64,000 nucleotides of DNA, taken from Bacteroidales bacterium (lineage in GTDB: Bacteria > Bacteroidota > Bacteroidia > Bacteroidales > P3). The translations under genes were made by a program, and so were the position numbers. Positions 678-52,212 of the stretch are shown here, in pieces; the stretch's first letter is position 1; each line of letters starts with the position of its first letter. The notes beneath the pieces were generated by a model. That model worked only from the letters and a program-made list of their open reading frames with translations. It was not told the DNA's origin and ran no database searches. Location of the stretch: assembly GCA_017522105.1 (NCBI GenBank), contig JAFXAA010000027.1, forward strand, positions 1 to 64,000. The letters are read 5' to 3'.

Positions 678-765
678 GGAGTCCCTACGGAGCCCCTACG
701 GACCCCCTACGGCCGTTCTTCAGTGGAAAGCCGTCGAAGGGTCGTTGCGGGGCGGTGGTGGCTCC
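678..765. repeat. 11-bp-word modular hairpin A (degenerate)
   Basis: This lies in the gap of about 315 bp between the divergent YceD and LysE genes. The left arm (678-713) contains three CCTACGG words in 11-bp register. The right arm (730-765) is exactly as long and is complementary at 24 of 36 positions without gaps, with several of the remainder G-U compatible; the loop is 714-729. The left arm plus loop is nearly identical, in inverted orientation, to the right arm of the hairpin at 19843-19940. This looks like a decayed copy of the family described under findings. Confidence 0.7.
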
Positions 766-804
766 GCAGCGGGGACATCGGATAGGGGGGTGAATAAAAA
801 ACTT

Positions 805-835
805 TTTGCCACATGTCTTTTTTTTACTATCTTTG
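805..835 (+). promoter_or_regulatory. promoter of the LysE-family gene
   Basis: TTTG (805-808), a 19-bp spacer and TATCTTTG (828-835) form a consensus Bacteroidota promoter. The -33 box is extended to TTTTTGCCA. ATG 855 follows 19 nt downstream. Confidence 0.8.
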
Positions 836-854
836 CATTTACTTTTTTTGCGAA

Positions 855-1619
855 ATGGAACTGCTAATTGGCATATTGTGCGGCATTGCGCTGTCGCTGT
901 TCTTTAGTTTCGGGCCTGCGTTTTTTGGCTTGATTCAGAGCAGTATAGAGCATGGTTTCCGTCGCGCCATGGCATATGCTGTGGGCGTGAGCCTGAGCGA
1001 CGTGCTGGTGGTGGCGCTGATGCTGACAGTGTTCAAAAATGTGGACATGGAGGCCGTGTTGCACAATATCTATGTGGCGCTGATTGGCGGCGCGGGCATA
1101 ATTGCCATGGGTGTATACACGTTCCGCAAAAAGACCAAGCCCGCTTCGGGCAAGCACGGGCACATGAAGTTCAGGAGCACTGAGAACGTGGGTCGCAAAC
1201 AGTTGCTTCTGCACGGCTTCCTGCTCAACATCCTCAACCCCTTCATCTGGGTCTACTGGATTTCGGTCATCACGCTCCTTTCGGGCGAGATGGGGCTCCG
1301 CGGTGCCGAGCGTTACCTTTTCTTCACGGGATTGCTGGGTGCCACGCTGGGTTGCGACCTGCTGAAGTGCCGACTGGCAGCCATGCTCCAGCAGATGATC
1401 ACCGCCAAGGTGCTGAACATCTTTAATATGGTTACGGGTCTGATTATGATAGCATTCGGTGTCTATCTTATCGGGGCTATGGTTGTCTATCAGACCAATC
1501 CCGAAGCAAGGGAGAAGGAACAGGAGGCGATTCCGCAGAAGACCAAGGTGATACAGGATTTGCACAACAAGATGGTCCGCGACTCGGCCAAGCACGCCGA
1601 GACGGCGGATTACAGGTAG
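855..1619 (+). CDS. LysE/RhtB-family exporter
   Basis: Predicted inner-membrane exporter of 254 residues, LysE/RhtB type (amino acid or small metabolite efflux; the substrate cannot be read from sequence). The N terminus MELLIGILCGIALSLFFSFGP has the family's hydrophobic start and the conserved FGP turn. Further hydrophobic segments lie near residues 40-65, 72-92, 130-150, 155-175 and 195-220, separated by a basic loop. The lysine- and glutamate-rich tail is probably cytoplasmic. ATG 855 is preferred to the longer frame from 813 because 813-854 is promoter sequence. The 3' end overlaps the convergent LRR-protein gene by 10 bp. Confidence 0.82.
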   Translation: MELLIGILCGIALSLFFSFGPAFFGLIQSSIEHGFRRAMAYAVGVSLSDVLVVALMLTVFKNVDMEAVLHNIYVALIGGAGIIAMGVYTFRKKTKPASGKHGHMKFRSTENVGRKQLLLHGFLLNILNPFIWVYWISVITLLSGEMGLRGAERYLFFTGLLGATLGCDLLKCRLAAMLQQMITAKVLNIFNMVTGLIMIAFGVYLIGAMVVYQTNPEAREKEQEAIPQKTKVIQDLHNKMVRDSAKHAETADYR

Positions 1620-2665
1620 CAGACTTTCAGCGGGGCGGAGGCTCCGACGCTGACGATGTAGACGCCCTTGGCGGGCAGGGCTACGCTTGTGTCGTTGCCT
1701 GCGGCGGCGATGTGGAGGATGCGCCGTCCGGCGATGTCGCAGACTGTGAGTGGCTGTCCCTGGGCGCCGTTGATGTGGAGGATGCCGCTGCTGACGGTGG
1801 TGGCGATGGCGCTGCGCTGGGCGGTGGCAATGGCAACGGGAGGCTCGGGACACGTGTCTTCGACGATGTTGAGTTGGCTCCAGTGCTGGGCCGCGCTGTA
1901 TGCCGTGGCGCTGTTGCAGGGCACGGCTATCGCGAGGCTTGTGGAGGTGCCCTGGAAGGAGTCGCCGCCCAAGCTCGGCGGCGTGGCTCCGAGGAGGCGC
2001 ACGGTGTCAAGGAGTTGGCAGTCCTTGAAGGCAAAATCGCCGATGAAGTGCAGCCCGGAGGGGAGCACGCATTTGCTGATGTGGCAGTATTCAAGGGCGT
2101 CGTTGGCGATGCCCAGCGTGCTGTCGGCCACTATGAGGGGGGCTGTGCGCGAGCTTTGGACGGCCACGAGGTAGCGCCCCACATAGAGCACAGAGTCTTG
2201 CCAGTGGCTGCCGTTTGTCATGTAGGCCGTCATGCCGAAGCAGCCTGCTGCAAGCTGTGTGATGGTGGTGGGGAGGCTGACGGTGTCCAGCGCCGTACAG
2301 CTGGAAAAGACCATCATGGCGAGGCTCTGCACCCCTTCGGCCAGGAATGCCGACGTCAGCGAGCTGCAGCCCGCAAAGGCGCGCATGCCTATGGTCGTCA
2401 CGCTGCCGGGGATGCTGACCGAGGTGAGGCCCGTGCAGTTGCTGAAGGCCATGCGGTCTATCTCTGTGACGCTGTAGCCCTGTGTCGTGGCGGGTATGAC
2501 GAGGCGTCCGGTGGGTTTCGGCGTGCCTGAAACCACCTTGACGGTGCTGCCAGAAGTGATGGTGTAGTAGAGCGTCTGGCCCGTAGGGGCGGCTTCGCTG
2601 AAATCAAAAGCCCTCGCCACCATGGCGGTGGCGAGGAGCATTGTGATGAGTGTCAGTCTTTTCAT
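1610..2665 (-). CDS. BspA-like leucine-rich-repeat surface protein
   Basis: A 351-residue secreted protein. A signal peptide (MKRLTLITMLLATAMVARA) precedes BspA/LRR_5 repeats; the clearest run is MAFSNCTGLTSVSIPGSVTT followed by RAFAGCSSLTSAFL and VFSSCTALDTVSLP (about residues 70-140), with degenerate copies to about 240. The last 70 residues contain the GRRIL ... LPAKGVYIVSV pattern typical of the C-terminal sorting tail of type IX secretion substrates. A surface-adhesion role is inferred from the family. The gene starts only 7 bp after the mutB stop on the same strand and may be read from the mutB promoter. Confidence 0.82.
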   Translation of the reverse strand: MKRLTLITMLLATAMVARAFDFSEAAPTGQTLYYTITSGSTVKVVSGTPKPTGRLVIPATTQGYSVTEIDRMAFSNCTGLTSVSIPGSVTTIGMRAFAGCSSLTSAFLAEGVQSLAMMVFSSCTALDTVSLPTTITQLAAGCFGMTAYMTNGSHWQDSVLYVGRYLVAVQSSRTAPLIVADSTLGIANDALEYCHISKCVLPSGLHFIGDFAFKDCQLLDTVRLLGATPPSLGGDSFQGTSTSLAIAVPCNSATAYSAAQHWSQLNIVEDTCPEPPVAIATAQRSAIATTVSSGILHINGAQGQPLTVCDIAGRRILHIAAAGNDTSVALPAKGVYIVSVGASAPLKVCYL

Positions 2666-2672
2666 TGTGTTG

Positions 2673-4826
<2,154 letters not shown>

Positions 4827-4868
4827 TATCAGATGTTTATATTGTTATCGTTTATCGTATCTGAAGTG

Positions 4869-4899
4869 CAAATATAATAAATAATATTTATATGGCAAA
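4869..4899 (-). promoter_or_regulatory. mutB promoter
   Basis: On the minus strand TTTG (4899-4896, extended TTTTGCCA), a 19-bp spacer and TATATTTG (4876-4869). It lies in the gap before the PurL-related gene's stop and gives a leader of about 35 nt. Confidence 0.8.
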
Positions 4900-4903
4900 A
4901 TAT

Positions 4904-5698
4904 TTATCTGCTGATGGTTGTGTATTCGGCCACTGGGCCGAAGTCGTAGCCGTCCACCATGAGACGGTTCTTGGTGGTGCGGCCAAGGAAGCAACAGTTG
5001 AGGCGTGCCTCGCCGAGCTTGAGGAGGAAGGTGTCGTCTTGGCTGTCGGCGACGGCCACAAGGTAGCGTCCAGGCTCTTCGCCGAAAAGGAATGCGTCGA
5101 GGCGCACCTCGCGTGGCGAGAGTATGTCGTAGCCTAAGGGTGCGGTGAGGCGCAGCAACGAGCCGAAAAGCCCCCCTTTGCCAATGGAAGTGCCGGCAGT
5201 GGTTAGTCCGCTGTTTTGCAGTGCCGCAAGTATCATTTCAATGTATTGACAGTCTTCGTCGTGCCCGCCGGTAGCCATGGGCTCTTCGACGAGGTGCAGG
5301 CAGCGCCTGGAATACTCGCTGTCGGCGAACTCTGTGCTGACGTTGCCCACCATGTACAGGAGGGTGCCAGTGGAGAAAGCGGGGCTTTCTGTGCCGAATG
5401 TCAAACCCTTGCAAAGGCTATGCCCTATCTCCACACATTCTTTGACTTTGGGCTCCCGGATGCTTTTGTGGTCGGCTTTGCCGCTGTACAGGTACTCGTC
5501 GCGCTCCACTGTGTGGCGCTGGCCGCGCAGCCAGCCATAGAGGCTCTGCTGCTTGCCGTTGCTCTCCCACATGGCCAGCAATGTGGACAATTCCTCGATG
5601 GTAGGTATGCGCCCCACTATGTCGAGCACCTCGTCGTAGGCTTCGTGGCTGATGCCCAAGGCTTCGGCCTGCTCGTAGTCAATCTTCTGCTCCGTCAT
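4904..5698 (-). CDS. AIR-synthase/PurL-related protein
   Basis: A 264-residue protein. Its C-terminal half resembles the AIR-synthase C-terminal domain of the PurM/PurL superfamily: AGTSIGKGGLFGSLLRL (about residue 165) recalls the glycine-rich helix of that fold, followed by DILSPREVRLDAFLFGEEPGRY. It is far shorter than full PurL (over 1000 residues in this phylum) and lacks the ATP-binding and amidotransferase parts, so it is probably not the purine enzyme itself. ATG 5698 is chosen over 5731 because the longer form would overlap the phosphatase gene by 53 bp instead of 20. The 20-bp overlap suggests coupling to that gene. Function unknown. Confidence 0.6.
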   Translation of the reverse strand: MTEQKIDYEQAEALGISHEAYDEVLDIVGRIPTIEELSTLLAMWESNGKQQSLYGWLRGQRHTVERDEYLYSGKADHKSIREPKVKECVEIGHSLCKGLTFGTESPAFSTGTLLYMVGNVSTEFADSEYSRRCLHLVEEPMATGGHDEDCQYIEMILAALQNSGLTTAGTSIGKGGLFGSLLRLTAPLGYDILSPREVRLDAFLFGEEPGRYLVAVADSQDDTFLLKLGEARLNCCFLGRTTKNRLMVDGYDFGPVAEYTTISR

Positions 5699-6143
5699 TG
5701 AGCTTGTCGAAGAGCGCCGTGCATCCGGCATAGATGTCTTTCCATGCTGCTGTGAAGTTGCGTGTGTACCACGGGTCGGCGATGTCGCGTGGGTGGTCTG
5801 TATGGTCGAGCAGCAGTGAGACCTTGCCTTCAGGGTCTCCGCCGAAGATGGCCATGATATTCTTTATGTTTTCGCCGTCCATGCCTATTATCATGTCGTA
5901 CCGGCTGTAGTCGTCGGGGGTGAGCTGTCGCGCCGCATGTCCCGGGCAGCCGATACCGTGCTTGGCCAGTTCTTGCCGAGCCATAGGGTACACGGGGTTG
6001 CCTATCTCATCAGTGCTTGTAGCCGCCGATGCTATTTCAAAATCGGCTTCGCGCTCCGCCGTGCGCACCATTTTCTTCATTATAAACTCTGCCATAGGGC
6101 TTCTGCAAATGTTGCCGTGGCAGACAAAGAGTATTCGTTTCAT
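5679..6143 (-). CDS. low-molecular-weight protein-tyrosine phosphatase
   Basis: A 154-residue phosphatase with the catalytic loop C-H-G-N-I-C-R-S-P at residues 9-17 (C-x5-R-S) and the general-acid loop DPWYT near residue 127. This is the normal architecture and length of the LMW-PTP family, which dephosphorylates tyrosine-phosphorylated proteins, often those of capsule export. ATG 6143 is preferred to the longer frame because it begins four bases after a consensus -7 element, so the mRNA is probably leaderless. The gene overlaps the downstream PurL-related gene by 20 bp. Confidence 0.9.
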   Translation of the reverse strand: MKRILFVCHGNICRSPMAEFIMKKMVRTAEREADFEIASAATSTDEIGNPVYPMARQELAKHGIGCPGHAARQLTPDDYSRYDMIIGMDGENIKNIMAIFGGDPEGKVSLLLDHTDHPRDIADPWYTRNFTAAWKDIYAGCTALFDKLNDGAED

Positions 6144-6147
6144 GGTG

Positions 6148-6179
6148 CAAAGATACGACTTTTTCTTGACATGGCCAAA
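6148..6179 (-). promoter_or_regulatory. promoter of the tyrosine phosphatase gene
   Basis: On the minus strand TTTG (6179-6176), a 20-bp spacer and TATCTTTG (6155-6148). The start codon at 6143 lies within 5 nt of the -7 element, which predicts a leaderless or near-leaderless transcript. Confidence 0.7.
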
Positions 6180-6203
6180 TTTTTTTGCTGTGATGGTGCA
6201 AAA

Positions 6204-6236
6204 ACATAACACCCGCACGTCGGTGCGGGTGTTATG
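6204..6236 (-). terminator. terminator after rplS
   Basis: A perfect inverted repeat (arms 6205-6218 and 6223-6236, core ACCCGCAC, loop GTCG) is followed on the minus strand by a short T run. It lies 35 bp downstream of rplS and closes the translation-gene cluster. Confidence 0.85.
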
Positions 6237-6270
6237 CATATATCCTTGCCGTATCGCCAAAGCGAGCGGA

Positions 6271-6624
6271 CTAACGTCTTTTCTCTTTGATACGGGCTTT
6301 CTTACCGGTGAGGTCGCGCAAGTAGAAGATGCGGGCGCGGCGCACGGCACCGTGCTTGTTGACATCAATCTGCTCGATGAACGGGCTGGCGAAGGGGAAG
6401 ATGCGCTCCACTCCGACGCCGTTGGCGATCTTGCGGACAGTAAAGGTCTCAGTAGCTCCGCTTCCACTGCGCTGCAGGACAACGCCCTGGAAGTTCTGGA
6501 TTCTCTCTTTGTTACCCTCTTTAATCTTATAGTGGACGGTGATGGTGTCGCCAGCTTTGAACTCAGGGAACTCCTTGCGCTCTACAAGGTTCTCCACATA
6601 CTGCATTAATTCAGTTTTTCCCAT
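6271..6624 (-). CDS. rplS: 50S ribosomal protein L19
   Basis: A 117-residue ribosomal protein located at the 30S-50S interface. Family signatures are [32 protein letters not shown] and the arginine-rich RRARIFYLR near the C terminus; the length is as expected. It is the last gene of the thrS-infC-rpmI-rplT-rplS run, 30 bp after rplT, and is followed by a strong terminator. L19 is more often linked to trmD, so its position after rplT is a lineage-specific arrangement. Confidence 0.97.
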
Positions 6625-6654
6625 GACAATTAGATTCTTTTAGTGGTTAAACTC

Positions 6655-7002
6655 TTATTTCTTTACCATCTTGACAACAGCGGTGAAGGCCTCGGGATTG
6701 TTCATGGCGAGGTCGGCAAGCACCTTGCGGTTGAGCTCGATGTTGTTCTTGTGAAGTTCGCCCATAAAGACGGAGTACGAGATACCGTTGATGCGGCAAC
6801 CGGCATTGATACGGTTGATCCACAGCGAGCGGAACTCGCGCTTCTTGTTCTTACGGTCACGGTAAGCGTAGGTCTGACCTTTTTCCCATTTGTTCTTGGC
6901 AACGGTCCACACGTTTTTGCCTCTGCCCCAATAACCTTTGGTGCGGTTGAGGATTTTCTTTCTGCGGGCTCTGGAGGCCACAGCATTTACTGATCTTGGC
7001 AT
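6655..7002 (-). CDS. rplT: 50S ribosomal protein L20
   Basis: A 115-residue early-assembly protein of the 50S subunit. Signatures are the basic N terminus [18 protein letters not shown] and the C-terminal fold [20 protein letters not shown]. It follows rpmI by about 100 bp, an AT-poor gap in which a translational operator would be expected in species where L20 represses the infC operon; I did not resolve such a structure. Length and context are standard. Confidence 0.97.
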
Positions 7003-7105
7003 AATTCAATTTGTTTTTCGTTCAGGCGGCAGCGCGGTGCTTTTCGCTTTTTTCTACCGGCTGCTCTTGTCGGCTCTGAGCAATGGTTAATAACTCCTGT
7101 TGTTT

Positions 7106-7300
7106 TTACGCAAGCAGCATGCGTTTCACGCGTGCCTCGTCGTCACGGCTCACAAGGGCGGTGTGGTCGAGGTTGCGCTTCTGCGTCGTCTCCTTCTTGG
7201 TCAGGATGTGACTGTGGTAAGCATGCTTTCTCTTGATCTTGCCGGTGCCGGTGAAGGTGAAACGCTTCTTGGCAGCGGCCTTGGTTTTCATTCTTGGCAT
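7106..7300 (-). CDS. rpmI: 50S ribosomal protein L35
   Basis: A 64-residue, strongly basic ribosomal protein. [14 protein letters not shown] and [17 protein letters not shown] are the family signature. It sits between infC (47 bp upstream) and rplT, the classical IF3-L35-L20 order, so one transcript and coordinated regulation are expected. Confidence 0.97.
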
Positions 7301-7920: not shown

Positions 7921-7929
7921 AACTTGGTT

Positions 7930-9921: not shown

Positions 9922-10108
9922 CACTTTTTTTACATTTTGGAAGAAATTATTTTATTTTCTTGCTTTTTTTTCACCTCTTGGCCGCTTCTTCCGTCACTCT
10001 CCGTCACGCCTGCGTCCACGTTTTTCAACCTCCACCGGGTTTCGTGCTGTTTTATGTTAAAATTAACCAAAATCGCTGCCTTTCCCCACCGAAGCCCCTA
10101 CGGACTTT

Positions 10109-10203
10109 CTACGGCTGTTCTACGGTTGTTCTACGGTTGTTTAACGGTTGTTCTACGGTTTTAACCGTTAAACAACCGTTAAACAACCGTAGAACAGCCG
10201 GTG
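10109..10203. repeat. 11-bp-word modular hairpin B
   Basis: This sits in the 450-bp gap between tRNA-Val and thrS. From outside inward the left arm reads the words CTACGGCTGTT, CTACGGTTGTT, CTACGGTTGTT, TAACGGTTGTT and a half-word at the centre. The right arm is the reverse complement of the same series minus one CTACGGTTGTT word. The centre is ACGGTT-TT-AACCGT-like, with CTACGG on one side and TAACGG on the other. The rest of the gap (9922-10108) holds no gene I can support; 10261-10289 is a separate GCCGGAGCG hairpin. Confidence 0.85.
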
Positions 10204-10306
10204 AAGTGGCGTGGGGCAGAGGCGTTTGCGCACTCCGCGCACGGTGCGGGGGCTGCGGTCGCCGGAGCGCATGTGTGCGCCGCTCCGGCGGATGGGGGCA
10301 AAAAGA

Positions 10307-10331
10307 AAGGCAGCCCTTCGCGGACTGCCTT
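10307..10331 (-). terminator. terminator after tRNA-Val
   Basis: On the minus strand AAGGCAGTCC pairs with GGGCTGCCTT (one wobble) around a GCGA loop, followed by TCTTTTTG. It abuts the encoded CCA of the tRNA. Confidence 0.75.
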
Positions 10332-10408
10332 GGTGATCTGTACAAGATTTGAACTTGTGACCTCTTGCCTGTCAAGCAAGCGCTCTAAACCAACTGAGCT
10401 AACAGATC
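10331..10408 (-). tRNA. tRNA-Val (anticodon GAC)
   Basis: A cloverleaf on the minus strand: acceptor GATCTGT pairing with ACAGATC, D arm TAGCTCAGTTGG, anticodon stem CTTGC/GCAAG enclosing the loop TTGACAG (anticodon GAC, valine), and T arm ACAAG-TTCAAAT-CTTGT. The discriminator A and the CCA end are encoded (CCA at 10333-10331). A consensus promoter lies 35 nt upstream and a hairpin terminator directly follows. Confidence 0.96.
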
Positions 10409-19842: not shown

Positions 19843-19940
19843 GGGTCCCTACGGCCCCTCTTCGGCCCCCCTACGGCCCTTCTACGGCCTTCCACTGAAG
19901 AACGGCCGAAGGGGGTCCGTAGAGGGTCCGTAGGGGCTCC
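19843..19940. repeat. 11-bp-word modular hairpin C
   Basis: This occupies the middle of the 390-bp gap between the divergent DUF4294 and SPFH genes, so it is upstream of both. Words are of the type CCTACGGCCCC and TCTTCGGCCCC in 11-bp register. The two arms pair over about 41 nt with single mismatches spread along the stem. The right arm is nearly the same sequence as the left arm plus loop of hairpin A. Outside this element and the SPFH promoter I see nothing else in the gap. Confidence 0.8.
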
Positions 19941-20030
19941 GAGCAAACCCAGTCTGGCAAAGGGCCGGCGAAAATTCCATGGTTAGGGATGCTTGAATGT
20001 CAATGTGTTGCAAAATAATTGAAAAAATAT

Positions 20031-32524: not shown

Positions 32525-32598
32525 AAAAAATGCCCTTTGCGACATTTTTTAACAGTTTGTCTGCCGACAGCGGCACCTCCTGCGGACGCCTCTTCAAC

Positions 32599-32719
32599 GG
32601 CTCCGGTACGGCTGTTCTACGGTTGTTTAACGGTTGTTCTACGGTTGTTCTACGGTTTAAACCGTTAAACAACCGTAGAACAACCGTTAAACAACCGTAG
32701 AACAGCCGTAGGGGCTCCG
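32599..32719. repeat. 11-bp-word modular hairpin D (near perfect)
   Basis: Located in the 330-bp gap between the nitroreductase and etfB. The words from outside inward are GGCTGTT, CTACGGTTGTT, TAACGGTTGTT, CTACGGTTGTT and a central CTACGG-TTTAAA-CCGTTA. The right arm repeats the same order exactly in reverse complement, giving a stem of about 46 bp with a mismatch only at the centre and outer edge. This is the most regular copy in the window. The remainder of the gap holds the etfB promoter and no gene. Confidence 0.9.
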
Positions 32720-32804
32720 TGGCGGATAGGCGCCTCGGAGCATGAAAAAACGGAGGGCGCGCATGGCGCCCTCCTTAAGGTTGTCTATGTCGTTGGCCTA
32801 CAGG

Positions 32805-40324: not shown

Positions 40325-40472
40325 CGGCCCTCCACGGTCGTTGAGCGTCGCCTGCGGAGCATCCGTTCCGCGGGCTTTGCTCGTTTGTTTCCAGTCCTTT
40401 GCCCCTCGGCATGCCCTCTTTGGGCAGGGTGCTGCAGCCAGCCTGCCATCCCTCCGCCTCCCGGCGGAGTCC

Positions 40473-40611
40473 CTACGGCTCTCCTACGGCTGTTCTACGG
40501 TTGTTTAACGGTTGTTCTACGGTTGTTTAACGGTCAAAACCGTAGAACAACCGTAGAACAACCGTTAAACAACCGTAGAACAGCCGTAGAACAGCCGTAG
40601 GAGAGCCGTGG
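40473..40611. repeat. 11-bp-word modular hairpin E (longest)
   Basis: In the 414-bp gap between the hypothetical gene and the FtsE-like gene. The left arm has the words CTACGGCTCTC, CTACGGCTGTT, CTACGGTTGTT, TAACGGTTGTT, CTACGGTTGTT and a central TAACGGT. The right arm is the reverse complement of the same order with one extra CTACGGCTGTT and with CTACGG at the centre, i.e. the central asymmetry is reversed relative to hairpin D. Upstream (40325-40470) I see nothing else; downstream is the FtsE promoter. Confidence 0.9.
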
Positions 40612-40679
40612 CGGTGGGGTGGGGAAGGGCGTCTGGGTGGAGCCGGAGGAGAGGTGCCGATAGTGTCTTTTGCAACTTT

Positions 40680-42469: not shown

Positions 42470-42597
42470 AAGGAGTTCGTGGAGTGCATAGAGTTTGTGT
42501 AGTTCAGGGAGCTCATGGAGTTAAAGGAGTTCAGGACAAATGTAACGACCGTTGTATTGTCTTGAACTCCCTGAACTCCCTGAACTCCGGGAACTTC
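42470..42597. repeat. 9-bp-word hairpin between OmpA and the FemAB-like gene
   Basis: The left arm has eight consecutive 9-mers such as AAGGAGTTC, GTGGAGTGC, AGGGAGCTC and ATGGAGTTA (42470-42541). The right arm has four 9-mers such as CTGAACTCC (42562-42597). The arms are complementary in word sequence (GGAGTTCAG versus CTGAACTCC). Confidence 0.85.
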
Positions 42598-45061: not shown

Positions 45062-45844
45062 ATGAAAAAAGTCGTATTAACCCTCACGCTTGCTGCTTTC
45101 GCATTTGCAGCTAATGCACAGTTCGTGATTGGTGGCCAGCTTGGCTTCAACACCAATGGCGGCAGAACCGCTAATGAGACCAACGTCGGCGGCACGACCA
45201 CCGCATGGAATGTCCCCGCTACTGCCTCCAGCAGACTCACCATTCTCCCGAAGGTTGGCTATCAGCTCAACGACAACATGCAGGTTGGTGCCCAGCTGGG
45301 TCTCACCTACAACTTCACTCGCACCTACGGTGCTATTTATGGTGCCGCCTACACCCCTGCCTTCGACAAGGCTGAAGACTGGCAGAACCAGTGGAACATG
45401 GGCTTCCAGATTGCCCCTTACTTCCGCTACAATGTGACGGAGTTCGGCAACTTCACCCTCTTCTGTGAGGCCGCCCTGCCCATCAACATCAACGGCAAGA
45501 CCCACTTCAAAGATCACGCTACTGAAATCAGCGCCGTTCAGCCCGCTGTCGACACTGCTTATGTTGGCAACACCAATAGTGGCAGCTTCGGCATCACCAT
45601 CACCCCGGGTCTGAACTACAAACTCAACGACAACATCTCCCTCGACCTCTATGTCGACCTGCTCGGCCTTGGCTTTGTCCACGGTTGGAACAGAACCTAC
45701 ATTGACAACAGCACCAGCGGCACCACCAACACCAGCGATGCAAGAACCTCTACCAACAGATTCTACTTCACTGCCAACATGAATGCCCAGACTGTTGCTG
45801 CCCACCTCAACCTCTTCCGCATCGGTTTCAACTATCACTTCTAA
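45062..45844 (+). CDS. outer-membrane beta-barrel protein
   Basis: A 260-residue protein with a signal peptide (MKKVVLTLTLAAFAFAANA) and alternating amphipathic strands ending in the aromatic residue F typical of barrel C termini (RIGFNYHF). Segments such as LPKVGYQLNDNMQVGAQLGL and GLNYKLNDNISLDLYVDLLG fit a small 8-10-strand porin-like or OmpW/OprF-type barrel. Transport role unknown. It follows the coiled-coil lipoprotein by 63 bp and is in turn followed by another small lipoprotein. Confidence 0.83.
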   Translation: MKKVVLTLTLAAFAFAANAQFVIGGQLGFNTNGGRTANETNVGGTTTAWNVPATASSRLTILPKVGYQLNDNMQVGAQLGLTYNFTRTYGAIYGAAYTPAFDKAEDWQNQWNMGFQIAPYFRYNVTEFGNFTLFCEAALPININGKTHFKDHATEISAVQPAVDTAYVGNTNSGSFGITITPGLNYKLNDNISLDLYVDLLGLGFVHGWNRTYIDNSTSGTTNTSDARTSTNRFYFTANMNAQTVAAHLNLFRIGFNYHF

Positions 45845-45933
45845 ACCGAAGGACACGGAAGTGTTTTGAATGACAATTAAACAGGGGCTTCCCCGATATG
45901 AGGTTCAAACAGGCAACTATAAACATTTAAGCT

Positions 45934-46449
45934 ATGAAACGTATTTTTGCAGCATGCCTTTCCGCTATGGCATTGTTTGGCCTCGTATCGTGCGAGAAGT
46001 CCGGCGCCTATGTGCCGGAGACCTTCACCCCGACCACGATAGAGCAGACCGTCTGGCTGGGTTCCAATTACATCGACGAGACAAGCGACCCTGATGTCTG
46101 GGTGCTCGCTTTTGCAACCGACAACGAGGTGGCCTATTGGGAAGGTAAATCCTCTGAATTATCCCGCGAGGAGGAAAACTACAGCAAGGGTTTCACTCAG
46201 GAAGATATTGCTTCGATGCCTGAAGGTACGGTCGTGGGAACATACACCTATGTTGACGGCAACGGCAGCATGGTTCTTCCTACCGGTGTTGCTTCGTTCA
46301 GCATCAACAAGGATGTCCTCACCCTCACTCTGAACGGCGAGGTCAAGACCCTGCAGCAGCTTGAGAGCGAACCAGATCACCCCCAACACCCCGACTATCC
46401 CAACGGTGGTGACGACTGGGGCAATGACGACTGGGGCAATGACTATTAA
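45934..46449 (+). CDS. small lipoprotein with Trp-rich acidic tail
   Basis: A 171-residue lipoprotein: lipobox L-V-S-C at residues 17-20, followed by a beta-rich domain I do not recognise (WLGSNYIDETSDPDVWVLAF, TVVGTYTYVDGNGSMVLPTG). The C terminus is an acidic, tryptophan-containing direct repeat, DDWGN twice then DY, preceded by a His/Pro stretch. ATG 45934 begins the signal peptide. A strong terminator follows. Confidence 0.75.
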   Translation: MKRIFAACLSAMALFGLVSCEKSGAYVPETFTPTTIEQTVWLGSNYIDETSDPDVWVLAFATDNEVAYWEGKSSELSREEENYSKGFTQEDIASMPEGTVVGTYTYVDGNGSMVLPTGVASFSINKDVLTLTLNGEVKTLQQLESEPDHPQHPDYPNGGDDWGNDDWGNDY

Positions 46450-46483
46450 TCATTGTCTTGAGTACAGTGAATAATAAACAATT

Positions 46484-46518
46484 AGGCGGCTCTCATGCGG
46501 AGCCGCCTTTCTTTTTTT
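46484..46518 (+). terminator. intrinsic terminator after the small lipoprotein gene
   Basis: Arms AGGCGGCTC (46484-46492) and GAGCCGCCT (46500-46508), loop of 7 nt, followed by TTCTTTTTTT. Confidence 0.92.
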
Positions 46519-46552
46519 GTTAATAAACAGTGCGGGATAGAGAAAAAAGTCG

Positions 46553-46560
46553 TATCTTTG
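46553..46560 (+). promoter_or_regulatory. -7 element of the DRTGG-PHP operon
   Basis: TATCTTTGCA, 32 nt before ATG 46593. No TTTG box at the ideal distance. Confidence 0.5.
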
Positions 46561-46592
46561 CAGTCGCAAAGGGATTATAAAAACACATCAAT

Positions 46593-46928
46593 ATGAAAGT
46601 AAGAGAACTTGTAGAGAAGCTGAACCTCAAGGTGGTCAGTGGAGAAAATGGCCTCGACCGCGACATCGACGGCTGCTATGTCAGCGACCTGCTGAGCGAC
46701 GTTATGGGCAATGCCGAGATGGGTAACGTGTGGGTCACGCTGCAGACGCACAAAAACGTCATGGCCATCGCCTCGCTCAAGGAGTTGGCCTGCGTCATAC
46801 TGGTCAAGAACCTCATGCCCAGCGACGACACCATAGAGCAGAGCAACGAAGAGGGCATCCCGTTCCTCTCCACCGACATGCAGACTTACGAGACCGTAGG
46901 CAAGATATACCAGCTTTTGAATGCGTGA
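46593..46928 (+). CDS. DRTGG-domain protein
   Basis: A 111-residue single-domain protein: MKVRELVEKLNLKVVSGENG, GCYVSDLLSDVMGNAEMGNVWVTLQTHKNVMAIASL and VILVKNLMPSDDTIEQSNEEGIPFLST match the DRTGG (HPr-kinase N-terminal-like) domain. In anaerobes this gene commonly precedes a PHP-domain gene near hydrogenase or redox clusters; here it is followed by the PHP gene but no hydrogenase. Residues L-N-A and the stop are encoded by an octamer array. Ligand unknown. Confidence 0.85.
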   Translation: MKVRELVEKLNLKVVSGENGLDRDIDGCYVSDLLSDVMGNAEMGNVWVTLQTHKNVMAIASLKELACVILVKNLMPSDDTIEQSNEEGIPFLSTDMQTYETVGKIYQLLNA

Positions 46929-47008
46929 ATGTGTTAATGTGTCAGTGTGTAAGTGTCTGGCGCCGTCAAATACTCACACGATAACGCATTAACGCAATAA
47001 CACATTAG
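46920..47008. repeat. 8-bp-word hairpin between DRTGG and PHP genes
   Basis: Left octamers (AATGCGTG, AATGTGTT, AATGTGTC, AGTGTGTA) start inside the DRTGG gene and include its stop codon. Right octamers (ACGCATTA, ACGCAATA, ACACATTA) run to the PHP start. The arms are partly complementary around a GGCGCC centre. Confidence 0.8.
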
Positions 47009-47010
47009 AT

Positions 47011-47778
47011 ATGCTCAACGCCTACAAAGCCGACCTGCACATCCACACGGTGCTCTCGCCGTGCGGCGATCTTGAGATGTCGCCCACGGCCATAGTGAAG
47101 CGTGCCGTGACGCGCGGGCTCGACATGATAGCCATCACCGACCACAACACCACGCGGCAGGTGAAGCTCACCCAGCGCCTTGGCCGCGAACAGGGCTTGT
47201 TTGTGATAGGCGGCGTGGAAGTCACCTCACAGGAAGAGGCCCACTGCCTCTGCTTTTTCGCCGACGATGCGCAGCTCGACGCCTTCCAGGACTTTCTGGA
47301 CAAGCACCTGCCGCCGATACCCCTCGACGAAGACCGCTTCGGCTACCAGCTCATCGTGGACGAGAACGAGGAGATTGTGGGCGACGAGCCTTATCTCCTG
47401 CATACAGCCATAGATGTGGACATCGACGGCATCTACGACGAGGTGCACCGCATCGGCGGCCTTTTTGTGCCTGCACATATCAACAAAGGCACCACCAGCC
47501 TGATGAGCCAGCTGGGCTTTGTGCCGCCCGACCTCAAGGCCGACGGCCTTGAAATCAACGCGCGCACCACGCGCGACGAGATGGTGAAGAAGTTTGCCTA
47601 CCTCAAGCGCTTCACCTTCATCACCGACAGCGACGCCCACTTCATAGACAATGTGGGCGACGTCTACAACCACGTATACATGGAGCACCGCTCCTTCGAG
47701 GAGTTCGCCATGGCCCTGCACGGCGAAGAGGGGCGCTATGTGGACAGCATGTACTTCCGCGACCATAGATTAAGATAA
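47011..47778 (+). CDS. PHP-domain phosphoesterase
   Basis: A 255-residue PHP-domain protein: KADLHIHTVLSPCGDLEMS (metal ligands), MIAITDHNTTRQVK, VIGGVEVTSQEEAHCL (Glu/His) and ITDSDAHFIDNVGDVY. This is the TrpH/RNase AM-like group acting on phosphoester substrates. It is paired with the DRTGG gene upstream (joined by an 8-bp-word hairpin) and is followed 2 bp later by the DUF4476 gene. Confidence 0.88.
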   Translation: MLNAYKADLHIHTVLSPCGDLEMSPTAIVKRAVTRGLDMIAITDHNTTRQVKLTQRLGREQGLFVIGGVEVTSQEEAHCLCFFADDAQLDAFQDFLDKHLPPIPLDEDRFGYQLIVDENEEIVGDEPYLLHTAIDVDIDGIYDEVHRIGGLFVPAHINKGTTSLMSQLGFVPPDLKADGLEINARTTRDEMVKKFAYLKRFTFITDSDAHFIDNVGDVYNHVYMEHRSFEEFAMALHGEEGRYVDSMYFRDHRLR

Positions 47779-47780
47779 CG

Positions 47781-48536
47781 ATGAAAAGACTTGTTTTAGG
47801 CGCTTTTTTGTGCCTCCTGGGAGCATTTTGCTCCGCCCAGCAGCCCCAGCAGGGCGCCCCGGCGCCGCAGCGCTATACTGTGCGTTTTGAGAGTCAGCAT
47901 GGCGAGGCCTTCACCGTCTTTATCGACGGCGAGTTGCAGAACCGTATGCCGCAGACGCGCGTGATGGTGAGCAACGTCAGCAACATCACCCACGAGGTCA
48001 TCGTTGTGCTCAAGCGACCCGCCGAGAAGGCCGCCGTCATGAGCCTGCGCCCCGGCGAGCCCAATGTGCTGGTGAACATCAACTATGACCGCCGCCTCGA
48101 CAAATTGTACCTCTACACACCGGCCCACAACCGCGGCGACGTTGAGGAGAAATTGCCGGAGCTGAAGGTGCCGAAGACATACGCAGACCGTAAGTCCGCC
48201 GAGGCTGACGCAGCAGTCGGTGAGTCGCGGCAGGATACTGTCGTCAAATATACCGAGGAGCAGGTTGATTCAATGGTGGTGCGGCTCAAGGGGCAGTCCT
48301 TCGACAGCGACCGGCTGGCTCTGGCCAAGGTCATCGTGGCTTCTGCCGAGACGCTCACCTCTGCCCAGATAGCGCGTCTGGCGCGTGTTATAGACTTCAG
48401 CAACTCGCAGGTCGACTTCCTCAAGTACGCCTTCCACTATTGCGCCGACCCCGTCAACTACACTGTAGCGGTGGACATCCTCACTTTCACCAGCGACAAG
48501 CGCAAAGTGCTCGACTACATCGCCGCGCAGCGGTGA
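47781..48536 (+). CDS. DUF4476 domain-containing secreted protein
   Basis: A 251-residue exported protein with signal peptide (MKRLVLGAFLCLLGAFCSA). An N-terminal beta-sandwich-like region (RYTVRFESQHGEAFTVFIDGELQN) is followed by a C-terminal DUF4476 helical domain (MVVRLKGQSFDSDRLALAKVIVASAETLTS ... DPVNYTVAVDIL). Function unknown. The last seven codons and the stop form the first copy of a 44-bp tandem repeat that extends to 48666. Confidence 0.85.
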   Translation: MKRLVLGAFLCLLGAFCSAQQPQQGAPAPQRYTVRFESQHGEAFTVFIDGELQNRMPQTRVMVSNVSNITHEVIVVLKRPAEKAAVMSLRPGEPNVLVNINYDRRLDKLYLYTPAHNRGDVEEKLPELKVPKTYADRKSAEADAAVGESRQDTVVKYTEEQVDSMVVRLKGQSFDSDRLALAKVIVASAETLTSAQIARLARVIDFSNSQVDFLKYAFHYCADPVNYTVAVDILTFTSDKRKVLDYIAAQR

Positions 48537-48666
48537 GGTGGTCAAGTATCGCCAGCGACTACATCGCCGCGCAGCGGTGAGGTGGTCAAGTATCGCCAAC
48601 GACTACATCGCCGCGCAGCGGTGAGGTGGTCAAGTATCGCCAACGACTACATCGCCGCGCAGCGGT
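48513..48666. repeat. 44-bp tandem repeat, 3.5 copies
   Basis: Copies at 48513-48556, 48557-48600, 48601-48644 and a partial one at 48645-48666, differing by one base. The first copy contains the end of the DUF4476 gene (codons for D-Y-I-A-A-Q-R and TGA). The array fills the space between the two convergent genes. Confidence 0.95.
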
Positions 48667-48673
48667 AGCCTCT

Positions 48674-49777
48674 TCAGAGGGCTATTTGTGTGGCGGTATT
48701 GTCTTTCGTATTGATTATCTCCACGGTGTTGGAGAAGCTTACGGTGATATAAGCTTTGCTGCCATAGACCGCCAAGTCCTGTGCCACGTCGCCTAAGGCG
48801 CGTCCGTTGGCGGCGCTGAATATGTTGTTTGTGATGCTTCCGTCGGCCAGTGCCACGCGGCTCAGCGATGCTTCGTTCTCTCCCCAGTTGCCCTGATTGA
48901 GTACGTAGGCCGTACCGTCGCCGACAGGCACCACCTTGGACGGCAGCATGCCCGCCTCGCAGCTCCACTGTCGTGTGCCGTCGGCGCCGAGGCGTATGAC
49001 GTCGCCCTTTGAACCGTCGTACTCATTGGTCGTCAAGTATATGTCCTCGCCGATACAGTTGATGCTGTAGGGGTGCTCTATGCCACAGGAGGCCAGTATC
49101 TGCTCCTCGCTGTTGGTCAGTGGGGCCAGACGGTAATATGTTGCCGGTTGGGCATATCCACCGCCGCTGTAGGCATACACCGCACCGTCGCGTGTATCGA
49201 GCGCCATGTATTCGTGGCCAAGTTCCTGCACCTCGTATGTGGATGTGTTGATAAGCACAGATGTCAGCGGAGCATCCAATCCGTTGCCGCATAGCACCAT
49301 GATATGGCTGTCGTCCACGGCCTTCATCCGGTCGGGGTCTTTGGGCACAGCTATGGTGCGCTCGATGCTGAAACTGTTGATGTCCACAACAATGACTATG
49401 TTGTCGTACAGGATGCCCGACGTTGTTTGAATAAACGAGCTCGCCACGAACAGTTTGCCCTGCGACTCCACCATGCCTTCTAGGTCATAGTCGCTCTCTA
49501 TCTTCAGCATGCGGTCAATCTGTCCGCTGGCGGTGTCTATGCGCAGTATGGCTGGGGGGTAGCCGCAGCTGACATACACCTTGCCGTCATGGCACACCAT
49601 GGAGCGTGGTTTGCGGGCTGCGCCAGCGCTGTAGTCGAGTTGCTGCGCCGCCACCGTCCTGCCTTCGGTTGAGGGCGGCGTTACGGGCTCCGGTTTCGGT
49701 ATTTCCTTGTTACATGCCGTCAGGCCCAACAGGGCGGCAACAACGACGGCCAATGCTCTCATGTGTTTCATGTTCAT
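48674..49777 (-). CDS. btuG: BtuG-like surface cobalamin-binding beta-propeller lipoprotein
   Basis: A 367-residue lipoprotein (lipobox L-T-A-C near residue 22, then a proline-rich linker). The rest is a seven-bladed propeller of the DUF5074/YncE-like type, with blades such as MVCHDGKVYVSCGYPPAILRID, LEGMVESQGKLFVASSF and AVYGSKAYITVSFSNTVEII. In Bacteroides, BtuG is the surface lipoprotein that captures vitamin B12 and passes it to BtuB. Its location 9 bp after a btuB-like gene under a cobalamin riboswitch supports that role strongly. Confidence 0.87.
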   Translation of the reverse strand: MNMKHMRALAVVVAALLGLTACNKEIPKPEPVTPPSTEGRTVAAQQLDYSAGAARKPRSMVCHDGKVYVSCGYPPAILRIDTASGQIDRMLKIESDYDLEGMVESQGKLFVASSFIQTTSGILYDNIVIVVDINSFSIERTIAVPKDPDRMKAVDDSHIMVLCGNGLDAPLTSVLINTSTYEVQELGHEYMALDTRDGAVYAYSGGGYAQPATYYRLAPLTNSEEQILASCGIEHPYSINCIGEDIYLTTNEYDGSKGDVIRLGADGTRQWSCEAGMLPSKVVPVGDGTAYVLNQGNWGENEASLSRVALADGSITNNIFSAANGRALGDVAQDLAVYGSKAYITVSFSNTVEIINTKDNTATQIAL

Positions 49778-49786
49778 GTTGTTTTG

Positions 49787-51826
49787 CTATATCTCGTAAG
49801 TGATTTTTAGACGGTAGTTACGGCCCATCATGGGGTAGGAGCGCACTATCTCGTACTGAGTGCCCAGCAGGTTGAGCACCTGCACCTGCACCTGCAAGGT
49901 GCCCCAGCGCAGGTCGAACTTGTGGTCGGCGCTGAGTCCGAGGTCGCAGTAGGCAGGCAACCGTGTGTCGTCGCTGTTCTGCATGCGGTAGTAGCGTTCG
50001 CCGACCACTGTGGCTGTGGCGCCGAGGTTCACCCATCGGTTCTCCCACCGCAGGCTTGCCCCGCCGCTATGGCGCGGTGTGTAGGCCAGCTGGTGCCCGT
50101 AGGTCTTGCCCTGCGGGTTGCTGCGGTCCACGGCGTGCTGGTAGCTGTAGTTGAGCTGCATGCTTACGTTGCCCGCCTGCCCGTTGGCCGTGGCGTCAAT
50201 ACCTATAATGTCGGCCTTGCCGATGTTCTGCATGCTCCAGAGGAACATGTTCTGTGTCGGTATGGCCAGTATCTTGTCCGTCACGCGGTTGTAGTACATG
50301 TCCAGCGTGCCGCCCCAATGCTCCGCCGTGTGCGTGATGCCCAGGTTGTGCTGTCGCGCACGTTCCGGGCGCAGGTCGCGCGGTATGGTGAAGAAGTACA
50401 GCTCGCTGAAGTTGGGGGCGCGGAATGTCTCTTTGTAGAAGTAGCGCAGCGTGGTGCCCTGCCCGATAGTGTACATCAGGCTGGCGTAGGGCGAGAAGCG
50501 GCTGTAGGTAGGCATGGTGTCGAGGTCGTCCACGCGGTCGCCGATGACGGTGGCCAGCAGCTGGCCCTGCGCCTCGACGGGGCCTTTGTGCAGGCGCACC
50601 CTGGTAGTGGCCACGAGGCTGCTGCGCTGAACGGCGTAGCGTTGCTGCAGGTTGGAGTTGAGCCAGTTGACGGCGCCGTCGGCGGCGGCGTTCACGTCGA
50701 GCCATTCCGTGGCTCTCCACAGCGCGCTGCCGCTTGCATAGGCTTCGCGCTGCAGGTATTCGTTGTGCAGGTAATGGCTGCTGTTCGATGCGGCACTGTC
50801 CTCATACATGTCCCACGTCTCTTGCGCCTTGGCGAGCACCTGCCACTTCCACCGCTCCTTTTCCACACGCCAGCGCACCTGCGCGAATGCAACCTCCTCG
50901 CGGGTGCTTTCGGCCGACGGCACCTGGTTGTACAACTGCACGGGCCCCGGCAGCTGGTGCATGCCGCGCATGTAGTGCAACTTGGCGGTCAGCGTGTTGT
51001 CCTTGGCAATGGTGTAGAACAGCGACGCGTCGGCGGTCAGCATGCGCATGGCCGAGTGGCGGCGCCGCTCGCGGCTGGTCTTCCCCTGGCGGTCGGTGGT
51101 GTAGTAGAGGGTGAAGGGGTAGTCGCCGTCGCTCTTCAGGTAGTTGACCCACAGGCTGCTCTTCAGCCGTCGGCTCCACTTCTGCTCCCACAGCACCTGC
51201 GGGCTCAGCATGCCGAAGGAGCCTGCCTCCATGCCCACCTTGAGGTTGGTGCGTTCGGCGAGGAAGAATGTCGGCTCCGCGCTCACCAGGCTCAGCACGT
51301 TGCCCGCCGCGTAGGCGCGCGCCGAGAGCAGGTCGTCCTGCTGCTGCCCCTGGCTGAAACTGACGTAGGCTGCGTTGCCCAGAAGGTAGCGCCCCAGGTC
51401 CACCTGGCCGTTCTGCGAGTTGTCCACTGCCACACCGTCAATGGTCAGCGTGGAGAACTGCGTGCCCAGGCCCCTCGCCGACACGGTCTTCATGCCGCCC
51501 ACGCCGCCGTAGTCCTTCAGTGTGACGCCGGCCATGCGGCGCACGGCGTCGCTCAGCTGCATGGCTCCCTGGGCTTCTATCTTCTCCACGTCCATCACCT
51601 GCGTGGGCGCCGCCGTGCGGTGGGTCGAGGGGGCCCGCTGTGTGCTCACCTCCACCTCGTCCAGCGTGCGCACGGTGTCCTGTGCCGTGGCGGCAACAGG
51701 CTGCAGCGCAGCCGCAAAAAGCAAAGCCCTGAGGAGAGGACGTGATGCAAGCAGGGCCGGTGACGACCGCCGTGGCCGTCGGCAAACGATAAACGATACT
51801 TTACAATATAGGCTTCCAATGCTCAT
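49787..51826 (-). CDS. btuB: TonB-dependent cobalamin receptor (BtuB-like)
   Basis: A 679-residue outer-membrane receptor. The plug domain (about residues 50-165) has VSTQRAPSTHRTAAPTQVMDVEKIEA, DAVRRMAGVTLKDYGGVGGMKTVSARGLG; the barrel follows, with FRAPNFSELYFF and the terminal RNYRLKITYEI. The N terminus contains two candidate starts; ATG 51826 overlaps the stop of a 9-codon ORF and gives an unusually long basic leader before the signal helix (LLRALLFAAALQPVAATA). The upstream riboswitch identifies vitamin B12 or a related corrinoid as the substrate. Confidence 0.9.
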   Translation of the reverse strand: MSIGSLYCKVSFIVCRRPRRSSPALLASRPLLRALLFAAALQPVAATAQDTVRTLDEVEVSTQRAPSTHRTAAPTQVMDVEKIEAQGAMQLSDAVRRMAGVTLKDYGGVGGMKTVSARGLGTQFSTLTIDGVAVDNSQNGQVDLGRYLLGNAAYVSFSQGQQQDDLLSARAYAAGNVLSLVSAEPTFFLAERTNLKVGMEAGSFGMLSPQVLWEQKWSRRLKSSLWVNYLKSDGDYPFTLYYTTDRQGKTSRERRRHSAMRMLTADASLFYTIAKDNTLTAKLHYMRGMHQLPGPVQLYNQVPSAESTREEVAFAQVRWRVEKERWKWQVLAKAQETWDMYEDSAASNSSHYLHNEYLQREAYASGSALWRATEWLDVNAAADGAVNWLNSNLQQRYAVQRSSLVATTRVRLHKGPVEAQGQLLATVIGDRVDDLDTMPTYSRFSPYASLMYTIGQGTTLRYFYKETFRAPNFSELYFFTIPRDLRPERARQHNLGITHTAEHWGGTLDMYYNRVTDKILAIPTQNMFLWSMQNIGKADIIGIDATANGQAGNVSMQLNYSYQHAVDRSNPQGKTYGHQLAYTPRHSGGASLRWENRWVNLGATATVVGERYYRMQNSDDTRLPAYCDLGLSADHKFDLRWGTLQVQVQVLNLLGTQYEIVRSYPMMGRNYRLKITYEI

Positions 51827-51852
51827 TTCCGTCCTTTCCTCGAGGGCTTCAT
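51823..51852 (-). CDS. nine-codon upstream ORF coupled to btuB
   Basis: ATG 51852 encodes MKPSRKGRK and its TGA overlaps the btuB ATG (ATGA). It lies just after the B12 box of the riboswitch. It could couple ribosome entry at the riboswitch outlet to btuB translation, or it may be chance; only comparative data can tell. Confidence 0.4.
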   Translation of the reverse strand: MKPSRKGRK

Positions 51853-51861
51853 GTTTCTCTT

Positions 51862-52035
51862 GTCGGTTCCGGCAGGTCTTCTGGCTTGCCTCCGGCGCTC
51901 CGCCTTCCCGCGCGCCTGTGGCGGCGTGCAGTGGCTTGTGGAGTGCCTAACTCGTTGAGGCTCACAGCAGCGGGACTGCCCGGGATTTGCACCCGGTTCC
52001 CTATTATCGGCCCTCGCGGGCCGACCGAAACCGGC
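51862..52035 (-). promoter_or_regulatory. cobalamin riboswitch
   Basis: On the minus strand the conserved blocks occur in the usual order: AATAGGGAA, GGTGCAAATCCCGGGCAG, CCCGCTGCTGTGA, AAGCCACTG, GGGAAGG and the B12 box AGCCAGAAGACCTGCC (51886-51871). This is a complete AdoCbl-type aptamer. It is expected to reduce btuB-btuG expression when cobalamin is abundant. No separate terminator was found, so control is probably translational. Confidence 0.95.
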
Positions 52036-52037
52036 TG

Positions 52038-52068
52038 CAAAAGTACGAAGAAAATGCGACATGGCAAA
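52038..52068 (-). promoter_or_regulatory. btuB-btuG promoter
   Basis: On the minus strand TTTG (52068-52065, extended TTTTTGCCA), 19 bp, TACTTTTG (52045-52038), starting transcription at the 5' end of the riboswitch. Confidence 0.85.
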
Positions 52069-52105
52069 AATTATTTGCATCGCCATCGCTCCCCCTACGG
52101 CCCCG

Positions 52106-52212
52106 GTACGGAGCCCCTACGGCATTTCTTCAGTAGTTCTTCAGTAGTTCTTCAGTCAAACACTGAAGAACTACTGAAGAAATGCCGTAGGGACTCCGTA
52201 GGGGCTCCGTAC
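52106..52212. repeat. 11-bp-word modular hairpin F
   Basis: Between the rimO terminator and the btuB promoter. Left arm words: GGTACGGAGCC, CCTACGGCATT, TCTTCAGTAGT twice, then TCTTCAGTC at the loop. The right arm is the reverse complement of GTACGGAGCC, CCTACGGAGTC, CCTACGGCATT, TCTTCAGTAGT and TCTTCAGTG. Both arms keep the 11-bp register, but the words have changed (TCTTCAG in place of CTACGG) in both arms together. The rest of the 420-bp gap is promoter, riboswitch and terminator. Confidence 0.85.

Follow-up and report, generated by a model that had tools for sequence, protein, structure and literature searches.

What are the long hairpins that stand between the genes of one Bacteroidales contig, and why are their arms built from short tandem words? 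The question is raised by positions 1 to 64,000 of contig JAFXAA010000027.1 (here the window) from the Bacteroidales bacterium metagenome-assembled genome (MAG) GCA_017522105.1 (2.28 Mb; here the source genome), in which an initial annotation had described six modular hairpins, A to F, with arms of 11-bp words. The hairpins are real: all six loci fold as described, very stably, and are part of a genome-wide family. That family has features beyond the initial annotation, namely word dialects that differ between species, positions kept while cores are replaced, even spacing and a preference for gaps between divergent genes. Anatomy, location, spacing, kept position and word turnover are observed directly in the DNA, and the data suggest that an undescribed structural element, present along the whole chromosome, is shared by several species of one Bacteroidales genus. 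Our preferred but tentative reading, drawn from sequence, is that the hairpins are elements of chromosome architecture at the DNA level, perhaps as a cruciform and/or an array of phased protein-binding sites, with cores that undergo overwriting at fixed positions.

Genome-wide family, placement and spacing

The word period is nearly invariant: of 326 intervals between successive word cores, 325 measure exactly 11 bp, counted over elements of the source genome and of its sister species G023 with cores at most 16 bases apart (relative genomes are labelled G, named MAGs L and contigs C). The exact pattern CTACGGNNNNYCTACGG matches 273 times in the 2.28 Mb of the source genome and never in a reversed control; with up to one mismatch the counts are 398 and 8. 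(In G069 the reversed control pattern matched 37 times and may be a word, spaced at 11 bp, that belongs to that genome.) A 449-kb sample of the source genome, comprising the window, contigs C10 and C3, and positions 1 to 60000 of C4, contains 31 hairpins, none of them within a called gene, and in a count of 89 hairpin centres, 0 fall within called genes. Genes were called with a codon-usage script, which makes start positions approximate. The detector was mixed, taking ungapped hairpins with arms repeating at a lag of 11 and adding word clusters for the source genome and G023 only, so some elements are missed (for example, G023 at gap D). Across 2.46 Mb of DNA from the genus, hairpins scoring at least 20 had a best arm lag of 11 in 52 cases and another lag in 3; 24 had no clear period or an arm shorter than 25 nt. 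GC content climbs from hairpin centre to base, from 0.41 to 0.67 in the source genome, 0.53 to 0.66 in G023, 0.36 to 0.60 in G029 and 0.42 to 0.50 in G070.

Gap and spacing statistics were drawn from contigs with at least four hairpins in these four genomes (G036 and G069 were excluded), where 85 of 86 hairpins could be placed and the remaining one, at the C10 terminus, was dropped. Counting gaps of at least 100 bp and including tRNA genes, hairpins occupy 44 of 93 divergent gaps, 37 of 277 tandem gaps and 4 of 33 convergent gaps (Fisher p = 3e-11), and a length-weighted expectation would put 16.4 of the 85 hairpins in divergent gaps, against 44 observed. The motif TANNTTTG, which we take to be the Bacteroidales -7 promoter element, lies between hairpin and gene and is aimed at the gene at 90 of 126 flanking gene starts, compared with 20 of 126 on the opposite strand (gene calls without tRNAs, the search extending 60 bp into the called gene), and it occurs inside none of the 85 hairpins. 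Given this arrangement, many hairpin copies are probably untranscribed, which weakens the suggestion in the initial annotation that 11 bp matters as a turn of A-form RNA.

Hairpins are spaced more evenly than gap-type-matched chance in three of the four species. Against a null preserving hairpin counts for each gap type and contig, the coefficient of variation (CV) of spacing was 0.58 versus 0.94 in the source genome (p = 0.004), 0.40 versus 0.92 in G023 (p = 5e-5) and 0.44 versus 0.79 in G070 (p = 0.011), at mean spacings of 14.9, 10.7 and 17.3 kb, respectively (13.2 kb in G029). Intervals shorter than 4 kb were rare, with 2 observed and 17.1 expected over the four species (p = 0.002 in the source genome, 0.0008 in G023, 0.21 in G070 and 0.026 in G029). 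The source genome and G023 share ancestry, and their spacing and gap tests are therefore not fully independent; in addition, short-read assemblies may break at hairpins, so that close pairs may be lost and copies undercounted. Some contigs end at or near a hairpin (C10:225803, C8:19 and C12:423 in the source genome), and four named contigs (L070, L072, L097 and L100) end 148 to 239 bp upstream of thrS, with a hairpin seen only in L072.

Window hairpins, kept positions and replaced cores

The initial annotation had found the right loci, although the elements extend slightly past the bounds it gave. The hairpins and the features beside them are as follows.

678..765: hairpin A, words AGTCCCTACGG AGCCCCTACGG ACCCCCTACGG CCGTTCTTCAG, right arm imperfect; divergent gap between YceD (minus strand) and a LysE-like gene (plus strand)
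10093..10216: hairpin B, core TTGTTCTACGG/TTGTTTAACGG; tandem gap between thrS (minus) and tRNA-Val (minus)
10331..10408, minus strand: tRNA-Val(gac) adjoining hairpin B
19844..19942: hairpin C, words CCCTACGG CCCCTCTTCGG CCCCCCTACGG CCCTTCTACGG, older-type core; divergent gap between a DUF4294 gene (minus) and a Band_7 gene (plus)
32597..32720: hairpin D, of the TTGTT-core type, with 62-nt arms; tandem gap, in which the terminator of a nitroreductase-family gene is followed by the hairpin and then by a gene with an electron transfer flavoprotein (ETF) domain
32744..32776 (approximate), minus strand: intrinsic terminator belonging to the nitroreductase-family gene and distinct from hairpin D
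40468..40612: hairpin E, with 63-nt arms and a TTGTT core in the opposite orientation to those of B and D; it occupies a tandem gap, upstream of an FtsE-like ABC gene
51854..52044, minus strand: cobalamin riboswitch downstream of hairpin F (Rfam RF00174, 111.6 bits)
52090..52213: hairpin F, core TAGTTCTTCAG; tandem gap between a MiaB-like radical-SAM gene (minus) and the cobalamin-riboswitch gene (minus)
52221..52252, minus strand: ordinary terminator-like stem belonging to the MiaB-like gene and distinct from hairpin F, recognized from sequence and missed by a strict terminator scan

At B, D, E and F the inverted-repeat arms measure 50 to 63 nt (among 25 of 29 inverted-repeat pairs); C is shorter and less perfect, and A, the most imperfect, is absent both among those 25 of 29 pairs and from the output of a second finder. 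Tokenising both arms, after which the words of many hairpins were parsed by eye, bore out the word inventory, the word order shared by B, D and E, the one additional word in the left arm of B and the one additional CTGTTCTACGG in the right arm of E. The innermost pair of these three hairpins is CTACGG opposite TAACGG, in one orientation in B and D and in the opposite one in E. A modular family present in both orientations with gain and loss of whole words is supported. The innermost mismatch recurs in 9 of 9 nonchimeric TTGTT hairpins parsed by eye in the 449-kb sample of the source genome (one partner reading CAACGG; a tenth, chimeric hairpin excluded); it is not general, as many G019 hairpins with the same core carry TTGTTTAACGG on both sides, and TAGTT-type cores of the source genome are mostly symmetric up to the loop.

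Two claims of the initial annotation were not supported. The change to TCTTCAG in F had been taken as a matched local change expected if pairing is maintained; the word does occupy both arms, yet it is one of the cores used throughout the genome, with 145 matches to the doubled word. Nor does arm covariation serve as evidence of pairing: among six core families of 5 to 14 hairpins each, the left arm was no closer to its own right arm than to those of other hairpins in five (p = 0.53, 0.98, 0.99, 0.89 and 0.98), the exception being a GTCC family of G070 (p = 0.004) that mixes two subwords. Likeness between arms therefore mostly reflects genome-wide homogenization of the family.

Across the window, the Rfam 15 covariance models at gathering score matched only a tRNA and the cobalamin riboswitch. 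Positions 42492 to 42595 hold a different inverted array of approximately 9-bp words (GGAGTTCAG / CTGAACTCC) with 34 nt between the arms, and positions 46928 to 47006 a weak one of roughly 8-bp words (AATGTGTT.. / ..AACACATT), which an 8-bp array in G069 (L040 region) resembles. Two other hairpins of the source genome (C3:62837-62999 and C4:56503-56599) share an extra module (CCGTCGCGGAGGCGACGG..) 3' of the right arm, which in the C3 copy is flanked by near-duplicated GAAGAARTGCCGT.

Comparison with G023 reveals how positions and words part ways. Its contig C16 is collinear with the window, at roughly 83 to 95% identity over most aligned blocks (71% in one), and all six window gaps hold a hairpin or word cluster there. 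At B, D and E the source genome has a TTGTT core where G023 has an older-type core, with the outer words partly kept; at gap B the match covers the tRNA-Val side only, the other flank being rearranged. Hairpin C and its flanks are nearly identical in the two genomes, whereas at F the left flank is nearly identical and the hairpins differ by words or bases. Locus A has an orthologous hairpin in G023 and a hairpin of other words in the YceD-upstream gap of G019; the ETF-upstream gap D holds older-type words in G023 and other words in G036 and G056; and in L072, L084 and L089 the 400 bp upstream of thrS contain other words. In most of the other ETF, DUF4294 and YceD gaps that were fetched, this finder detected no hairpin; it also missed the G023 element at D, and some of the fetched ETF loci are paralogues.

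Among orthologous gene starts in the sampled sequence whose gaps measured 100 bp or more, the source genome and G023 both had a hairpin at 7 (representing 5 gaps), neither had one at 12, and none was discordant. Elsewhere, the source genome and G029 gave 2 starts with both, 1 with the source genome only and 2 with neither; the source genome and G070, 1 with both and 1 with neither; G023 and G029, 1 with both, 4 with G023 only and 7 with neither; G023 and G070, 2 with both, 1 with G070 only and 3 with neither; and G029 and G070, 1 with both, 1 with G029 only and 3 with neither. Pairs involving hairpin-poor species were mostly one-sided.

The cores themselves follow another pattern. Among 70 genomes, the exact doubled TTGTT core occurs 78 times in the source genome, 54 times in G019 and 0 times in the remaining 68, G023 included, although G023 is closer to the source genome than G019 is (ETF protein, 96 versus 92% identity; YceD protein, 85 versus 78%). 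The doubled TAGTT core occurs 145 times in the source genome, 73 times in G023 and a single time in G008, with no occurrence in any other genome, G019 included, and a chimeric hairpin at C10:191257 of the source genome joins a TTGTT left arm to a TAGTT right arm. Cores have therefore spread or been lost in ways unlike the relations between species.

Word dialects and distribution among relatives

The relatives come from rumen and gut: they are Bacteroidales MAGs close to "bacterium P3" and Candidatus Colimorpha. A hairpin finder that presupposed no particular words, applied to stretches from other species in the genus, recovered arms with an 11-bp period built from other words: TTGTTCTTCGA in G029; TTGTCCGCTTG, TTGTCCAGTCG and TTGTACAATAC in G070; TTGTACGATAC in G036; TCGTTCAACCA in G069; GATCCTACGGG in G020; and TAGTATTACGG in G012. 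The words of G056 are TTGTTCAGTAC and, at the ETF gap, TTGTTCGTTTG. Judged by eye, many dialect words begin in a T-N-G-T-like manner.

Distribution is patchy. Among 20 further species sampled at 20 to 100 kb, four (G012, G046, G054 and G056) had 11-bp-period hairpins, and G049, G016 and G068 had none in 63 to 80 kb, counts that describe the sampled stretches and not whole genomes. Such hairpins were present at 7 of 80 named threonyl-tRNA synthetase (ThrRS) loci, all within the 39 closest, and the MAGs that bear hairpins are dispersed through a single 32-row clade of a 41-row ThrRS tree.

Word hairpins with other periods also occur. Those with 7-bp words (lag 7 or 14: AGTGGCC, TTTAAGG, AAGTGGA) were seen in G001, G012, G015, G023 and the source genome (C4:12735), several of them carrying a GGCTGACGC-like spacer, and a further CTACCAACTCC-like repeat lies in hairpins with an 11-bp-like period in G036, G046 and G009.

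Competing explanations and known systems

We infer that the hairpins act at the level of DNA. Transcription leaves negative supercoils behind, and the comparatively AT-rich centre and GC-rich base might allow cruciform extrusion of the palindrome at sites that divergent transcription leaves most underwound. Each cruciform would absorb about a dozen supercoils, estimated from arm length, roughly once per topological domain. Alternatively or in addition, the 11-bp-phased words may form an array of sites for a protein whose specificity drifts between species, producing the dialects, while cores would be overwritten by recombination or copying between hairpins through their better-conserved outer words. 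Topological domains have published sizes of roughly 10 kb in order of magnitude, and between divergent genes supercoiling may change even more abruptly (PMC10642903); a cruciform-prone palindrome could thus buffer or bound such domains. A more specific version, possible but doubtful, is that these chromosomes are segmented every ~11 kb by dialect-bearing palindromic boundary elements, arrays of phased 11-bp words at divergent promoters, read by a fast-evolving factor, with words rewritten genome-wide and boundaries fixed.

Several observations weigh against an architectural role. Spacing in G029 was not significantly even (CV, 0.65 versus 0.82; p = 0.18), nor was G070 significant by short intervals, and agreement of occupied gaps is only partial outside the source genome and G023. 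The centre of G023 hairpins is only slightly AT-rich (GC, 0.53 versus 0.58 for the genome), and the mismatched innermost pair in all nine TTGTT hairpins disfavours extrusion. Sampled stretches of 16 of the 20 further species and 73 of the 80 ThrRS loci lack such a hairpin; with so many species without them in the stretches sampled, the role is hardly essential in the genus. A strict scan found a separate terminator-like site at 11 of 44 gene 3' ends facing a hairpin (2 in a control), and with so few, some copies may be transcribed. The sharing of cores across species relations fits mobility equally well. Finally, no partner factor emerged, as searches for Y1 transposase, IS1182 and SbcD do not track the hairpins. 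Loss of the palindrome nuclease SbcCD as a permissive cause was also rejected: SbcD is present in hairpin-bearing G070 and G020, while 22 of 30 genomes have none over the cut-off, among them the source genome (one weak match), G023 and G029.

A serious rival, itself only possible, is that selfish cores, moved in trans or by recombination, overwrite existing hairpin cores or insert in the loop, with divergent untranscribed gaps merely tolerating copies and even spacing arising from target immunity or purging; both this and an architectural role may hold. The sharing of TTGTT with G019 and not the closer G023, the TAGTT distribution, the chimera and the patchy presence across one clade all fit it, and there is a precedent in the stem-loop-replacing transposition of IS1272 (PMC5678879). 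Against it, all six window positions are common to G023, which means few new positions, and a partner transposase was not found. Matches to PF01797 (Y1_Tnp), which is broader than the transposases associated with repetitive extragenic palindromes, number 0 in hairpin-rich G029 (97% complete) and in G019 (81% complete), and 1 each in the source genome and G023, with 46 of 70 genomes positive and G070 not included. An IS1182-family transposase over the cut-off was found in 0 of 25 genomes, and the weaker matches in 5 of the 25 do not include the source genome, G019, G023, G029 or G070; we therefore rejected IS1272-type replacement. Carriage by viruses or plasmids was likewise set aside, as the 11 viral contigs that matched four exact word patterns contain no such hairpin and hairpin E had no blastn match in plasmids or phages. 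That the hairpins are degraded copies of a single miniature inverted-repeat transposable element (MITE) or insertion sequence (IS) end, an origin raised by the initial annotation, fits their high copy number, palindromic form and both orientations; it is nonetheless the least credible explanation that we considered, given the conserved word period and positions, the missing link to a transposase and the lack of any target duplication or clean empty site at the single gap examined, D (18 species compared), where hairpin-free G019, which alone shares the upstream gene, has neither terminator nor hairpin.

Explanations at the level of RNA or of DNA uptake appear weaker. One turn of A-form RNA is 11 bp, and the hairpin could act as a bidirectional transcription insulator, halting or destabilizing read-through and antisense transcripts between operons; very stable folds, the siting of tandem-gap hairpins closer to where the upstream gene ends (median relative position, 0.38) and the 33 of 44 facing gene ends without a separate terminator in the strict scan speak for this. 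We consider it unlikely, since convergent gaps are not favoured (4/33), termination requires no 60-bp arms, word dialects or even spacing, and both D and F have a separate terminator ahead of the hairpin, the order at D running from gene end to terminator, hairpin and promoter-like motif. The initial annotation had assigned ordinary terminators to B and F; the separate ones identified are at D and F. Its view that termination does not suffice is upheld: 44 of the 85 placed hairpins, with A and C among such loci in the window, lie between divergent genes and not at gene 3' ends, and we rejected an intrinsic terminator as the main role. Improbable, too, is the idea that the words mark self DNA as DNA uptake sequences (DUS) do, with dialects following the receptor. 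Species-specific words and even distribution agree with it, and DUS dialects are documented (PMC3630211), but long arms are unnecessary for uptake and the mean spacing of 10.7 to 17.3 kb compares with about 1 kb for the uptake signal sequence (USS) of Haemophilus influenzae (PMC7811141).

If the DNA-level reading is correct, these hairpins would be a sequence-visible marker of domain-scale chromosome organization, making it testable what sets ~10-kb topological domains and how a dispersed element stays in place while being rewritten; boundary elements in particular would be a bacterial counterpart of boundary or centromere repeats that evolve in concert. Selfish cores, conversely, would be an unusual parasite targeting its own kind. 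The element occurs in many copies in gut and rumen bacteria, and its species dialects on a common 11-bp frame offer a natural set for finding the cognate factor.

Among known systems, BOX-type repeats are modular, with the order boxA-boxB(n)-boxC, and may resemble the hairpins. DUS and USS share short words, species dialects and genome-wide spread with the hairpins, but they are about tenfold denser and are not known to contain long hairpins. The sequence of repetitive extragenic palindromes (REPs) differs between species. Like REPs, bacterial interspersed mosaic elements (BIMEs) and REP doublets forming hairpins (REPINs), the elements described here are high copy, extragenic and palindromic (PMC3733652; see also PMC3116915). 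REPs are described as 20 to 40 bp long, usually tagged at one end with GTAG or CGTC, and often accompany REP-associated tyrosine transposases (RAYTs) (PMC3733652), whereas the hairpins have arms of up to 63 nt, repeats of 11-bp words and kept positions with replaced cores. Right arms of the source genome have CCGTAG in most words and the hairpin bases of G029 often have CCGTC, both inside paired arms; the printed G070 arms show neither tag. Arm lengths beyond 20 to 40 bp and the absence of PF01797 from G029 led us to reject a REP/RAYT system. TAACTGA heptamers are likewise many intergenic tandem short words, found also in five Bacteroidetes, but they are 7-bp direct repeats (one indirect), mostly just 5' of start codons (PMC4679880). 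In Porphyromonas gingivalis, of the same order, a long imperfect inverted repeat with a 77-bp arm marks the 5' end of an operon and has been discussed as a possible cruciform; it is reported as a single locus, and the printed arm has no 11-bp words by eye. IS1272 also replaces an inverted repeat in place without target duplication, but as a whole IS with a transposase (PMC5678879). Among the papers listed in searches of the openly licensed literature, none describes Bacteroidales hairpins that are built of 11-bp words, bear dialects or are evenly spaced, which agrees with the initial annotation, to which no such family was known. Dispersed extragenic palindromes are already known as a broad kind, within which this conspicuous many-copy element seems to be undescribed in that literature.

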